Assembly (NCBI GenBank): GCA_947596085.1 | Contig: CANQEW010000005.1 | Coordinates: forward strand, 1 to 64,000 | Direction: 5' to 3' | DNA: 64,000 nt | DNA from: an uncultured Clostridia bacterium | GTDB taxonomy: Bacteria > Bacillota > Clostridia > Christensenellales > Aristaeellaceae | Shown: piece after piece, positions 11,210 to 61,606 of the stretch | Position numbering within the stretch: position 1 is the stretch's first letter | How the letters are laid out: the number at the start of each line of letters is the position of its first letter | Translations under genes and position numbers: made by a program | The notes under the pieces: model-generated | What the model was told of the DNA's origin: nothing | Seen by the model: only the letters and a program-made list of their open reading frames with translations | The model's database searches: none

Positions 11210-11258
11210 GTCCTTCTAGGCGCACCAAATCGACCCCACAGTCGAAACGCAACGCAGA

Positions 11259-11289
11259 CCTTTGGTCCCATGAATCATGGGGCCAAAGG
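11259..11289. repeat. Perfect-looking hairpin CCTTTGG/CCAAAGG with CCCATG core
   Basis: CCTTTGG T CCCATG (11259-11272), loop AAT, CATGGG G CCAAAGG (11276-11289): 14 pairs including one G-T. It lies downstream of the MFS gene and 34 bases before repeat copy 1. Its CCCAT...ATGGG apex recalls the loops of the cluster at 61.3 kb. It may also act as a terminator, though no T-run follows. Confidence 0.55.
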
Positions 11290-11322
11290 CCGTCATCAAA
11301 AACGCGGCAGCCGAACGGGATT

Positions 11323-11490
11323 CCAAAGGGTCAATGACCCTTTGGCGGGTCTGGGCAGCGCCCAGCGTAACCCCAGGCGGCCCGCATCCAAGCCCAAGCC
11401 GCATAAATTCGGCCGATCACTTTACCCTTCCCAAAAGCGGGCCGCCGCGGCGAGTTTTTGGCTTGGAAAGCGTTGCTTTCCAAGCCAAAA
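11323..11490 (-). repeat. Dispersed multi-hairpin repeat, copy 1
   Basis: Inverted relative to copies 2 and 3. Parts in order: hairpin B CCAAAGGGTC/GACCCTTTGG (11323-11345); mini-hairpin CTGGGC/GCCCAG (11351-11365); GGCGGCCCGC (11376-11385) paired with GCGGGCCGCC (11437-11446) around a variable 51-base insert; hairpin A of 16 perfect pairs, TTTTGGCTTGGAAAGC with its complement and loop GTT (11456-11490). The whole 11210-11702 gap holds no gene: besides this copy and the hairpin at 11259 there is only an AT-richer stretch and the terminator at 11592. Confidence 0.8.
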
Positions 11491-11591
11491 GAGCCGCAGC
11501 AAACTCTCTTTCTCCAATCGCCGAGGCGTTCCTTTCTTAATTATGTTCTTTAATATCCTCGCAAATAATCTCCGGCGCTAAAGCGACAAAA

Positions 11592-28253: not shown

Positions 28254-28421
28254 TTTTGCCGGGGGAAGCGAATGCTTCCCCCGGCAAAAAGCGCCGAGGC
28301 GGCCCGCGCTTGGTTTTGGAGGGAGGGTTGTTTGTTTTGTTGGATGTTTGTTTGATGGCGCGGGCCGCTTGGGGTTACGCTGGGCTCTGCCCAGACCCGC
28401 TTAAGAACCTGAGGTTCTTAA
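28254..28421 (+). repeat. Dispersed multi-hairpin repeat, copy 2
   Basis: Hairpin A: TTTTGCCGGGGGAAGC with its complement, 16 perfect pairs and loop GAAT (28254-28289). Then GCGGCCCGCGC (28299-28309) paired with GCGCGGGCCGC (28358-28368) around a 48-base T/G-rich insert, mini-hairpin CTGGGC-TCT-GCCCAG (28380-28394), and hairpin B TTAAGAACC/GGTTCTTAA (28401-28421). It has the same order of parts as copies 1 and 3, but hairpin B is unrelated in sequence. It lies between the kinase gene and the bceA promoter, splitting what is often a contiguous bceRSAB cluster. Confidence 0.8.
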
Positions 28422-28472
28422 GAATCTCCCTTTGGCTGCCGCCCCGCTGAACGAAGGATATTCCATGAAAGA

Positions 28473-43754: not shown

Positions 43755-43822
43755 ATAATGCGGCAGTGGGGCTGGTTTAAAAGCTATGGATGTACATAAA
43801 TTAAAAAAGTTAGTGGCGGCTG

Positions 43823-44003
43823 TTTCGGTTTGGAAAGCTTTGCTTTCCAAACCGAAAAGCGCAGCGGCGGCCCGCCATGGATGGCGATGCAAGGTTGGTA
43901 CGGAATGTCCGGCTTGATTGCTTCGCGGGCCGCCGGGGTAAGCTGGGCGCTGCCCAGACCCACCAAAGGGGCATCGCCCCTTTGGAATCCCGGCTGCTGC
44001 CGC
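43823..44003 (+). repeat. Dispersed multi-hairpin repeat, copy 3
   Basis: Hairpin A: TTTCGGTTTGGAAAGC with its complement, 16 perfect pairs, loop TTT (43823-43857). Then GGCGGCCCGC (43866-43875) paired with GCGGGCCGCC (43925-43934) around a 49-base insert, mini-hairpin CTGGGC-GCT-GCCCAG (43943-43957), hairpin B CCAAAGGGGC-ATC-GCCCCTTTGG (43963-43985), and AATCCCGGCTGCTGCCGCG. Same order as copy 2. It lies between two LysR regions with no gene inside. Confidence 0.8.
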
Positions 44004-44067
44004 GCTTAGGCGCGGGGTCTAGGGATTGACTGATGTGCACATTGGAACCAATGGATTGGAGGGAATC

Positions 44068-58761: not shown

Positions 58762-60282
58762 GTGAGCGAATACTTGCTCGAAATGAAAAACATCTGTAAA
58801 TCATTTCCGGGCGTCAAGGCTCTGCAAAGCGTGGATTTCCAGCTCAAGTCCGGCGAGATTCATGCGCTGCTGGGCGAGAATGGCGCCGGTAAATCGACGC
58901 TGATCAAGGTTCTGGGCGGCATCTACCATCCGGAGGAGGGCAAAATCTTCATCGATGGCAAGGAGGTTGCCATCACGAGCGTCAACAGCGCCCGCGACAA
59001 CGGCATCTCCATCATCCATCAGGAGCTCGTGCTCGTCCCCCACATGACCGTCGCCGAGAACATCTTCCTGGGCCGCGAGCCCATGGGCAAGTTCGGCGTC
59101 AACCGCGTCCAGATGAGCCACGACGCTCAGCGGATGCTGGACACCTTCGATCTGGGCATCGACGCCGACAGCCAGATCGCCGATCTGAGCATCGCCCAGC
59201 AGCAGCTGGTGGAGATCGTCAAGGCGATCTCGTTCAACTGCCGCATTCTCGTGATGGACGAGCCCACCTCCTCCATCTCCGACCGCGAGGTCGCGCATCT
59301 GTTTGAAATCATGCGCGATCTGGCCAAGAAGGGCGTCGGCATCATCTATATCTCCCACAAGATGAGCGAGCTGGACGAGGTGTGCGACCGCGTGACGGTG
59401 CTGCGAGACGGCACCTACGTGGGCACCCGCGTCGTCGCCGACACTCCCAGGGACGCGCTGATCGCCATGATGGTCGGCCGCGAGCTGAATCAGTATTACA
59501 CTCGCGACCACGTCAAGTCCACCGACGTCGTGCTCAAGTGCGTGGACATCGACGATGGCAAGAAGCGCCATAAGCGCGTCGATCACGTGAGCTTCGAGGT
59601 GCGCAAGGGCGAGATCGTGGGCTTTGCCGGTCTGGTCGGCGCGGGCCGCAGCGAGACCATGCAGTGCCTGTTCGGCCTGACTCCCGGCTCCACCGGCGAG
59701 GTATACATCGAGGGCCAGAAGGTGCACATCCGCAACGCGGTGGACGCCATGCGCCACGGCATCTCTCTGGTGCCGGAGGACCGCAAGCTGGAGGGCCTCT
59801 ACCACGTGCAGAGCGTGCGCTTCAATTCCACCATCGAGGTGCTGCACGAGTTCATCGCGCACTTGCATGTGAACGAAACCCGCGAGGCGCAGATCACGCA
59901 GGAGTTCATCGACAAGATGCGCACCAAGACGCCGTCGCAGGATCAGACCGTGGGCAACCTCTCGGGCGGCAACCAGCAGAAGGTCATGATCGGCCGCTGG
60001 CTGGCCACCAACCCGAAGCTTTTGATCCTGGACGAGCCCACCCGCGGCGTGGACGTCGGCGCGAAGGCCGAGATCTACGAGATCATGAACGAGCTGACCA
60101 AGCAGGGCGTCTCGATCATCATGATCTCCTCGGAGCTGCCGGAGATCATCAACATGGCGGACCGCGTGTACGTCATGTACGAGGGCAGGGTCACCGGCTG
60201 CATCGACTACGAGAACCTCAGCCAGGAGGCCATCATGAAGCTCGCGACACTAGAAACGGCAGGAGGACAGAGCAATGGTTGA
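58762..60282 (+). CDS. Ribose-type sugar ABC transporter ATPase (RbsA-like)
   Basis: 506 residues with two ABC domains, as in RbsA/MglA. Domain 1: Walker A GENGAGKST (about 35-43), signature LSIAQ, Walker B LVMDEPTSSIS. Domain 2 starts near 250: its Walker A is degenerate (GLVGAGRSE), normal for this family, with signature LSGGN and Walker B LILDEPTRGVD. It energises sugar import. It starts at GTG 58762, 164 bases after the binding-protein gene. Its stop overlaps the permease start by eight bases. Confidence 0.93.
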   Translation: MSEYLLEMKNICKSFPGVKALQSVDFQLKSGEIHALLGENGAGKSTLIKVLGGIYHPEEGKIFIDGKEVAITSVNSARDNGISIIHQELVLVPHMTVAENIFLGREPMGKFGVNRVQMSHDAQRMLDTFDLGIDADSQIADLSIAQQQLVEIVKAISFNCRILVMDEPTSSISDREVAHLFEIMRDLAKKGVGIIYISHKMSELDEVCDRVTVLRDGTYVGTRVVADTPRDALIAMMVGRELNQYYTRDHVKSTDVVLKCVDIDDGKKRHKRVDHVSFEVRKGEIVGFAGLVGAGRSETMQCLFGLTPGSTGEVYIEGQKVHIRNAVDAMRHGISLVPEDRKLEGLYHVQSVRFNSTIEVLHEFIAHLHVNETREAQITQEFIDKMRTKTPSQDQTVGNLSGGNQQKVMIGRWLATNPKLLILDEPTRGVDVGAKAEIYEIMNELTKQGVSIIMISSELPEIINMADRVYVMYEGRVTGCIDYENLSQEAIMKLATLETAGGQSNG

Positions 60283-61246
60283 AAGAATCGGCAAGAGCGT
60301 AAAACGCTACTTTAAGGACAACCTCGGCATACTGTGCGCGCTGATCGCCATGGTGCTGTTTTTGTACATCTTCCCGCGCACCCACAGCACGTTCCTCACC
60401 AAGACCAACATCTTCAACGTGCTTCGCCAGAACGCGCCGAACCTGCTGCTCTCCTGCGGCATGACGATGGTCATCATCCTGGGCGGCATCGACCTGTCCG
60501 TCGGCTCCATCATCGCCATGTCCGGCGTGCTGGGCGCGGGCGCCGTGGTCTGGGGCGGCGCGCCCGAGATCGTCGGCATCCTCGTGGCGGTGCTGTCCGG
60601 CCTGCTGTTCGGCCTGTGCAACGGCTTCATCATCGCCAAGACGCAGATCCCGCCGTTCATCGTGACGCTGGCCTCGATGAACATCGCCAAGGGCATCGCC
60701 TACGTGTTCTCCGGCGGCAAGCCGATCCGTTGCATGACCGACGCCTGGAAGTTCCTGGGCGCGGGCTTCGTGGCCGGCATCCCCACCCCGGTGATCACGA
60801 TGTTCGTGGTGTTCATCATCTCGGTGCTGTTCCTGAACCGCACGCGGCTGGGCCGTCACATCTACGCGGTGGGCGGCAACGACACGGCGGCGAAGTTCTC
60901 GGGCATCAGCACGGCGAAGGTCAAGTTCGTGGTGTACAGCTTCAGCGGCCTGATGGCGGGCCTGGCGGGCATCACGATTGCCTCGCGCCTGTATTCCGGC
61001 ACGTGCAGGTCGGGCGACGGCGCTGAGATGGACGCCATTGCGGCGGTGGTCGTGGGCGGCACGTCCATGTCCGGCGGCTCCGGCCGCCTGGGCGGCACGC
61101 TGATCGGCGCGCTGATCATCGGCATACTGACCAACGGCCTGAACCTGATGGGCGTCAACTCCGACTGGCAGTACATCATCAAGGGCGCGGTCATTCTGCT
61201 GGCCGTGTATGTGGACTTCCTGCGGAGCAACAAGAAGGCGAAATAG
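60275..61246 (+). CDS. Ribose-type sugar ABC transporter permease (RbsC-like)
   Basis: 323 residues with about eight to ten membrane helices. RbsC-family motifs are GMTMVIILGGIDLSVGSIIA (about 65-84), GGNDTAAKFSGIS near 200-212 and MDAIAAVVVGGTSMSGGSGRLGG near 251-273. It forms the membrane channel with the preceding ATPase. The sugar could be ribose, galactose, xylose or another; the neighbouring FGGY kinase suggests a pentose or ketose. The operon ends here, followed by the hairpin cluster. Confidence 0.93.
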   Translation: MVERIGKSVKRYFKDNLGILCALIAMVLFLYIFPRTHSTFLTKTNIFNVLRQNAPNLLLSCGMTMVIILGGIDLSVGSIIAMSGVLGAGAVVWGGAPEIVGILVAVLSGLLFGLCNGFIIAKTQIPPFIVTLASMNIAKGIAYVFSGGKPIRCMTDAWKFLGAGFVAGIPTPVITMFVVFIISVLFLNRTRLGRHIYAVGGNDTAAKFSGISTAKVKFVVYSFSGLMAGLAGITIASRLYSGTCRSGDGAEMDAIAAVVVGGTSMSGGSGRLGGTLIGALIIGILTNGLNLMGVNSDWQYIIKGAVILLAVYVDFLRSNKKAK

Positions 61247-61292
61247 TCGGGTCGGCAGGGCCGACGGCCTCCTGCTGCCGCGTTTGAGCGAC

Positions 61293-61573
61293 GGGCTTTT
61301 GACCCCATAGATTCGAGGGTCAAAAGCCCTGCGTTGATTCGTCGATTGTTTGCAATGTACGAAGTACGAAATCCGACCCCACATATTCAAGGGCCGGATT
61401 TCTTGCGCCTTTTTTAGCTTCTTTGCCAGCTTTAACACCCTTCCGATACAACGCATGTAACGTAGAAATCTGACCCTCAAACCTATGGGGTCAGATTTCG
61501 TGCTTCGTACTTCGTTTTCATTCGATGCGCGGCACAGGCCTTCCGGTCCTTGAATCTATGGGGCCGGAAGGCC
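61293..61573. repeat. Cluster of four hairpins with a shared loop
   Basis: H1 61293-61329 (stem GGGCTTTTGACCC), H2 61368-61402 (stem GAAATCCGACCC, one mismatch, T-run after it), H3 61465-61499 (stem GAAATCTGACCC), H4 61537-61573 (stem GGCCTTCCGGTCC, one T-G). Each has an 11-base loop: CATAGATTCGA, CACATATTCAA, and on the opposite strand CATAGGTTTGA and CATAGATTCAA. H3 and H4 are thus inverted relative to H1 and H2. H2 and H3 also share the flank GTACGAAG-ACGAAATC in inverted orientation. The cluster fills the 61247-61606 gap between convergent genes; no gene is in it. Confidence 0.8.
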
Positions 61574-61606
61574 TGCGCTCAGGCACGGCAGTTAGCGGAG
61601 GCCGGT

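Follow-up and report, generated by a model that had tools for sequence, protein, structure and literature searches.

The four hairpins at positions 61293-61575 of the window (the whole stretch of 64,000 nt analyzed here) are two copies of a modular repeat of about 150 nt, which we call X-A-B, arranged tail to tail. Copies of the repeat number in the dozens in this gut-type Clostridia genome and occur in its relatives too. The reading that we prefer, with a probability of roughly 0.55, is that X-A-B is a modular, interspersed palindromic repeat that is restricted to one lineage, sits at the ends of transcripts, is similar to BOX and REP elements, and has spread by copying and recombination. If this is correct, a single repeat family sits within a base or two of the stop codons of tens of unrelated genes, and its three palindromes undergo complete changes of sequence without loss of perfect pairing on either strand. 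The family would then be a candidate common 3'-end transcript element in a poorly studied Clostridia family, and would make it testable how interspersed palindromes keep their arms in step and how repeats reach gene ends. Our literature search, which barely covered subscription journals and is weak evidence on this point, returned papers on REP and BOX elements and no description of the X-A-B family.

Two tail-to-tail elements between convergent genes

The gap of 360 nt between an ABC permease gene and the convergent proS gene is filled entirely by two X-A-B copies, as listed below. Comparisons were made with two related species, G001 and G002, in addition to the window's own genome (G000); G002 is a metagenome-assembled genome (MAG), Lapin-001 bin9, from an uncultured Clostridia bacterium. 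R1 denotes a covariance model of the hairpin.

60275..61246, + strand: ABC permease gene (PF02653, E 3.3e-42); element 1 starts at its stop codon
61244..61246, + strand: TAG stop codon of the ABC permease gene, read from the sequence
61251..61265, + strand: X palindrome of element 1, GTCGGC-AGG-GCCGAC, read from the sequence; same design in most of the 88 elements from this genome and G002
61266..61282, + strand: X tail of element 1, GGCCTCCTGCTGCCGCG; exact match, conserved across copies
61293..61329, + strand: H1, hairpin A of element 1, GGGCTTTTGACCC - CATAGATTCGA - GGGTCAAAAGCCC (stem - loop - stem); 13/13 stem pairs; R1, E 7.4e-17
61330..61367, + strand: A-B spacer of element 1
61368..61402, + strand: H2, hairpin B of element 1, GAAATCCGACCC - CACATATTCAA - GGGCCGGATTTC; 11/12 stem pairs (a single A.C); R1, E 9.9e-15
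61465..61499, - strand: H3, hairpin B of element 2, GAAATCTGACCC - CATAGGTTTGA - GGGTCAGATTTC; 12/12 stem pairs; R1, E 3.3e-15
61535..61575, - strand: H4, hairpin A of element 2, CAGGCCTTCCGGCCC - CATAGATTCAA - GGACCGGAAGGCCTG; 14/15 Watson-Crick pairs; R1, E 4.5e-15
61577..61606, - strand: degenerate X module of element 2 (ACCGGCCTCCGCTAACTGCCGTGCCTGAGC), read from the sequence; directly behind the proS stop codon
61607..63418, - strand: proS-type prolyl-tRNA synthetase gene (PF00587, PF04073, PF03129); element 2 starts at its stop codon

The original prediction described four hairpins with one conserved 11-base loop and unrelated stems. All four hairpins are present, H1 and H2 reading on the plus strand and H3 and H4 on the minus strand, and the RNA folding z-scores are strong (-4.5 and -5.7). 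The rest of that description needs correction: the loops are alike and not identical, with 6 of 11 positions invariant among the four, and H2 and H3 share one stem type (GAAATCYGACCC, nearly identical) while H1 and H4 have another, so that the four stems are not all unrelated. Comparison of the X tail of element 2 (CTAACTGCCGTG) with the consensus CTGCTGCCGCG showed it to be degenerate. The window gave no Rfam match at the gathering threshold, and a tRNA scan of it found nothing.

Anatomy of the element

In X-A-B, three palindromes follow one another in a fixed order and at fixed distances, and their flanks are conserved. The X palindrome is short, most often 6 bp around a 3-nt loop (GGG, AGT or AGG in 80 of the 88 elements from the window's genome and G002), and is followed by YTGCTGCCGCG. 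Downstream come GCGAC, which forms the upstream flank of hairpin A, hairpin A itself, a stem of 13 bp that mostly has GGACT at its outer end, then TGCG, about 37 nt of spacer, and the 12-bp hairpin B, with GAAATC or GACCTC as its outer end, which is preceded by GAC/CAC and has TTCG or TGCG behind it. In 90 elements, the centers of the A and B loops are separated by 71-75 nt; this is close to seven turns of B-DNA and would place both loops on one face. In a third of the copies an additional module Y (CGCGGCAGCAG..., with more hairpins) stands behind X-A-B, and in about one third A-B is flanked by the inverted pair CTGCTGCCGCG/CGCGGCAGCAG. Pairing of these two sequences as the outer stem of a single fold was considered and rejected, since only about one third of the copies have the pair and since at least one G002 copy, L089, has an altered X tail (CTGCTTCGCCG) with an unaltered partner.

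Copy number and distribution

A search for CCCCATAGATTCRAGGG with at most three mismatches returned 42 sites in the 3.1-Mb genome of the window, against 3 for a reversed-pattern control, so the hairpins are not a chance occurrence and the loop motif is not confined to the window locus. R1 gave 59 matches in this genome, a count that takes in weak matches and reverse-strand readings of identical hairpins, about 36 being strong and distinct; the sister genome G002 had 146 (about 140) and G001 had 20. The view of H1-H4 as members of a multi-copy family, with loops much more alike than stems and with stems that stay paired, is supported. Across the family, R1 matches were found in 9 of 150 genomes, in the genera g1 and g17 plus a single match in g2.

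A second model, R2, which combines flanks and hairpin, was run on 297 genomes of the order and added G007, of genus g6. There the elements form tandem arrays of about 121 nt, in which flanks and module order are kept while stems and loops are wholly different; the conserved loop is therefore a trait of the family at the level of the genus and not of the whole element. The X motif rises above its control chiefly in g1, g17, G007 and G022, and its occurrence inside a genus is patchy. Among the sampled relatives, then, X-A-B has a patchy distribution limited to a few genera of one family. Viral contigs searched with two patterns gave no match, and hence no sign of carriage by phages. In the window's genome, three X-A-B copies repeated in tandem every 234 nt (L037/L171, contig 54, 17902-18484) reach the contig end, and tandem repeats of this kind may break the assembly.

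Placement at gene ends

Elements start at the stop codon of the gene that closes a transcription unit and run in the sense direction. In most cases the first base of the X palindrome coincides with the third stop base or comes directly after the codon, and in most gene-linked copies hairpin A follows the stop codon at about 41-43 nt. With gene ends called by a simple codon score, so that individual cases may be wrong, 34 of 43 element-bearing ends have a TAG stop codon compared with 67 of 368 others (Fisher p = 1.4e-15), and a close co-directional gene follows none of the 43 but 152 of the 368. Much of the TAG excess is explained by X starting at or behind the third stop base. Some copies, a minority, are not preceded by a gene end; the TAG ahead of X is the stop codon, and in these copies it is not kept. 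Ordinary insertion does not account for the exact placement at stop codons. We favor either selection for the register, or recombination between existing stop-adjacent palindromes, as its source.

In having hairpins directly behind genes at the ends of transcription units, X-A-B resembles SPRITE elements and intrinsic terminators, but it differs from both in having three hairpins with conserved flanks and loops instead of one. A reading of H1-H4 as intrinsic terminators found no support: no clear U-tract or terminator-like match was found at H1-H4, and terminator-like sites are about equally common at element-bearing ends (7/43) and at other ends (23/215). On the mRNA, the tandem hairpins may act as a 3'-end block, by protecting the end, by forming a barrier to polymerase or by processing; between convergent genes, two copies would serve both transcripts. 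In G007, one X-A-B copy (L289) seems to be fused into the 3' end of a coding gene, where it stands in place of the final codons. The orthologues of this gene end are intact in G000 and G002, a possible case of insertion into coding sequence.

Pairing and covariation

In a set of 25 copies, 95% of the cells are paired and 74 are double-change cells, against 20.4 +/- 4.2 in shuffles, none of 500 shuffles being as high; each cell here stands for a copy and not for an independent event. One alignment was excluded because loops of 9 and 11 nt stood together in it and threw the inner pairs out of register. In a larger set of 23 A hairpins, selected in part for their pairing, 99.7% are paired and there are 64 double changes. 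Among 1,444 pairs the mismatches comprise 8 GU, 7 AC and 7 others, in hairpins from a finder whose demand for good pairing lowers the overall number and penalizes GU and AC equally. The near equality of GU and AC, with no GU excess, indicates that constraint or correction acts equally on both strands, and the strand-symmetric mismatches give no support for selection specifically on the sense RNA. Within the genus, the loops are far less variable than the stem middles. We propose that the stem sequence is free provided that pairing holds because it is the structure, and perhaps also the loop, that is recognized.

The hairpin loop may be read by some protein or RNA. One version of this idea holds that an RNA-binding protein or a small RNA recognizes the loop CATAGATYCRA in 3' untranslated regions and controls the stability or termination of many transcripts. 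The sense orientation at transcript ends, anchored to the stop codon, and the restrained variation of the loops relative to the mid-stem agree with such a signal, but loop classes change freely (GTAGATTAT, CATAAGGCCGA, GGCAAGAAT), the loops of genus g6 are unrelated, GU pairs are not favored over AC mismatches, and the window has no Rfam match. We consider such an RNA signal unlikely.

Reassortment of hairpins and proposed copying of elements

At the window locus, the orthologous sites in G001 and G002 have no X-A-B and carry other hairpins instead, while at the groEL gene end X-A-B is present in all three species with stems that are different but paired. The orthologous elements L164 and L184 have identical or nearly identical stems. 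In another pair, L166 and L190, the B stem is identical and the A hairpin has been swapped, loop included. Elements of G002 that are one or two spacer differences apart can differ in the entire A hairpin, the two arms and the loop class having changed together. Of 11 A hairpins seen repeatedly, 9 are each found alongside at least two different B hairpins, and the linkage of A and B is still above chance. Loops fall into a few discrete classes that switch while the stem stays, so that one stem is seen with more than one loop class. The hairpins reassort between copies as cassettes. A single identical B stem, nearly always with one loop, is common to 21 G002 copies, which points to recent copying. 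The family may accordingly be pictured as spreading via copying together with recombination or gene conversion between copies.

These comparisons bear on the original prediction, which looked on each hairpin as if neighboring sequence had been duplicated in inverted form around a mobile loop. In its favor, the loops of H1-H4 are more alike than their stems, but no arm recurs nearby, apart from the same-type likeness of H2 and H3, and the copies also share long flanks (X, GCGAC, TGCG and the spacer of about 37 nt) that are common to the whole family. Orthologous elements, moreover, keep their stems (L164/L184, and B of L166/L190). Nor is it supported that the loop is the conserved, mobile part, as loops switch in discrete classes on kept stems and G007 keeps the flanks with entirely other stems and loops. 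We find this model hardly credible.

A neutral origin is a more serious competitor, although we regard it as doubtful. It supposes that template switching during replication rewrites one arm from the other and that gene conversion shuffles the result, with no benefit to the cell. The joint change of both arms with hardly any one-sided intermediates, the strand symmetry of the mismatches and the swapping of whole hairpins between near-identical flanks are in line with such a process. It leaves unexplained, however, why the register with the stop codon is exact, why TAG is in excess, why operon interiors lack the element beyond what simple avoidance would give, and why the loops and outer stem pairs are conserved. 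A long shot, in our estimation, is that some unknown machinery installs and rewrites whole hairpins exactly at stop codons, for example by an mRNA-guided, reverse-transcription or template-switch route; the hairpins would then be exchangeable cassettes with freely variable stems, and the loop an address for a trans-acting factor.

Comparison with known systems

The closest known kinds of element are BOX (PMC3049150) and REP/BIME (PMC3733652, PMC8266576). X-A-B shares with MITEs its non-coding nature, its many copies and its inverted repeats (CTGCTGCCGCG ... CGCGGCAGCAG around A-B in about one third of copies). As for terminal inverted repeats, the pair CTGCTGCCGCG/CGCGGCAGCA flanks A-B in 32 of 88 copies and does not stand at the element ends. 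Neither a target-site duplication nor a matching transposase was identified, the orthologous empty sites being too diverged to define a junction.

With REP/BIME elements and REPtrons (TnpAREP/RAYT; PMC3733652, PMC8266576), X-A-B has in common high-copy extragenic palindromes, complementary stem changes, and dimers and tandem groups. It differs in its loops of 9-11 nt, where those of REP are mostly 2-4 nt, and in the direct order and fixed spacing of A and B. We examined whether X-A-B might be a single-stranded DNA mobile element of the REP/RAYT type, moved by an HUH (Y1) transposase that reads the hairpin loop and flank, with the stem sequence irrelevant as long as it is paired. The perfect, strand-symmetric palindromes, the near-identical recent copies and the Y1_Tnp matches in the window's own genome are compatible with this, as is the report that group-3 TnpAREP proteins act on perfect palindromes and that some read loop bases (PMC8266576). 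On the other hand, the Y1 copies of the own genome are all broken, and the loop motif is absent near them; G002, rich in elements, has no more than a scrap of 22 residues at the end of a contig; G018 and G061 have hairpins and no Y1 match; and many genomes that bear Y1 lack the element. The presence of Y1_Tnp thus does not track X-A-B, so that the HUH-type nuclease partner that had been suggested for the hairpins is not supported, and no intact Y1 transposase was found together with the element as in a REPtron, in genomes that are incomplete MAGs, whose gaps limit this result. Hairpins A and B also lack the GTAG/CGTC tag. Since neither the tag nor the transposase was found, X-A-B is not filed as REP, and transposition of the REP/RAYT type appears rather improbable.

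X-A-B works like a BOX-type modular repeat. The BOX elements of Streptococcus pneumoniae are built of modules in the order boxA-boxB-boxC (PMC3049150), and X-A-B resembles them as a short modular interspersed repeat with strong secondary structure and many copies, without a self-encoded protein. The two further share tandem amplification of modules and a preference for convergent gene ends. Modular order of the BOX kind was found in 90 elements, and tandem X-A-B copies in contig 54 of the window's genome and in G007. X-A-B is distinguished from BOX by its plan of three palindromes, its start at stop codons, and its stems that are variable yet paired. The likeness described here is one of design; at the level of sequence, the Rfam scan of the window gave no match.

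Related palindromic modules

Elsewhere in the window, a related multi-hairpin module occupies positions 11247-11500. It comprises an A-like hairpin, CCTTTGGTCCCATG-aat-CATGGGGCCAAAGG, followed by GCGGCAGC and GGGATTCCAAAGGGTC-aat-GACCCTTTGG, and continues with TCTGGGCAGCGCCCAG, GCGGCCCGC...GCGGGCCGC and TTTTGGCTTGGAAAGC-gtt-GCTTTCCAAGCCAAAA. Two more copies of its downstream modules, at 28254-28440 and 43812-44012, have the opposite order and different, perfectly paired stems. In three G002 copies (L096, L097 and L100), a different palindromic element (AAGGTTGGAAACCC... / AAGGTTGAATTCCC...) is inserted in the loop of hairpin A or in a hairpin of the Y module.
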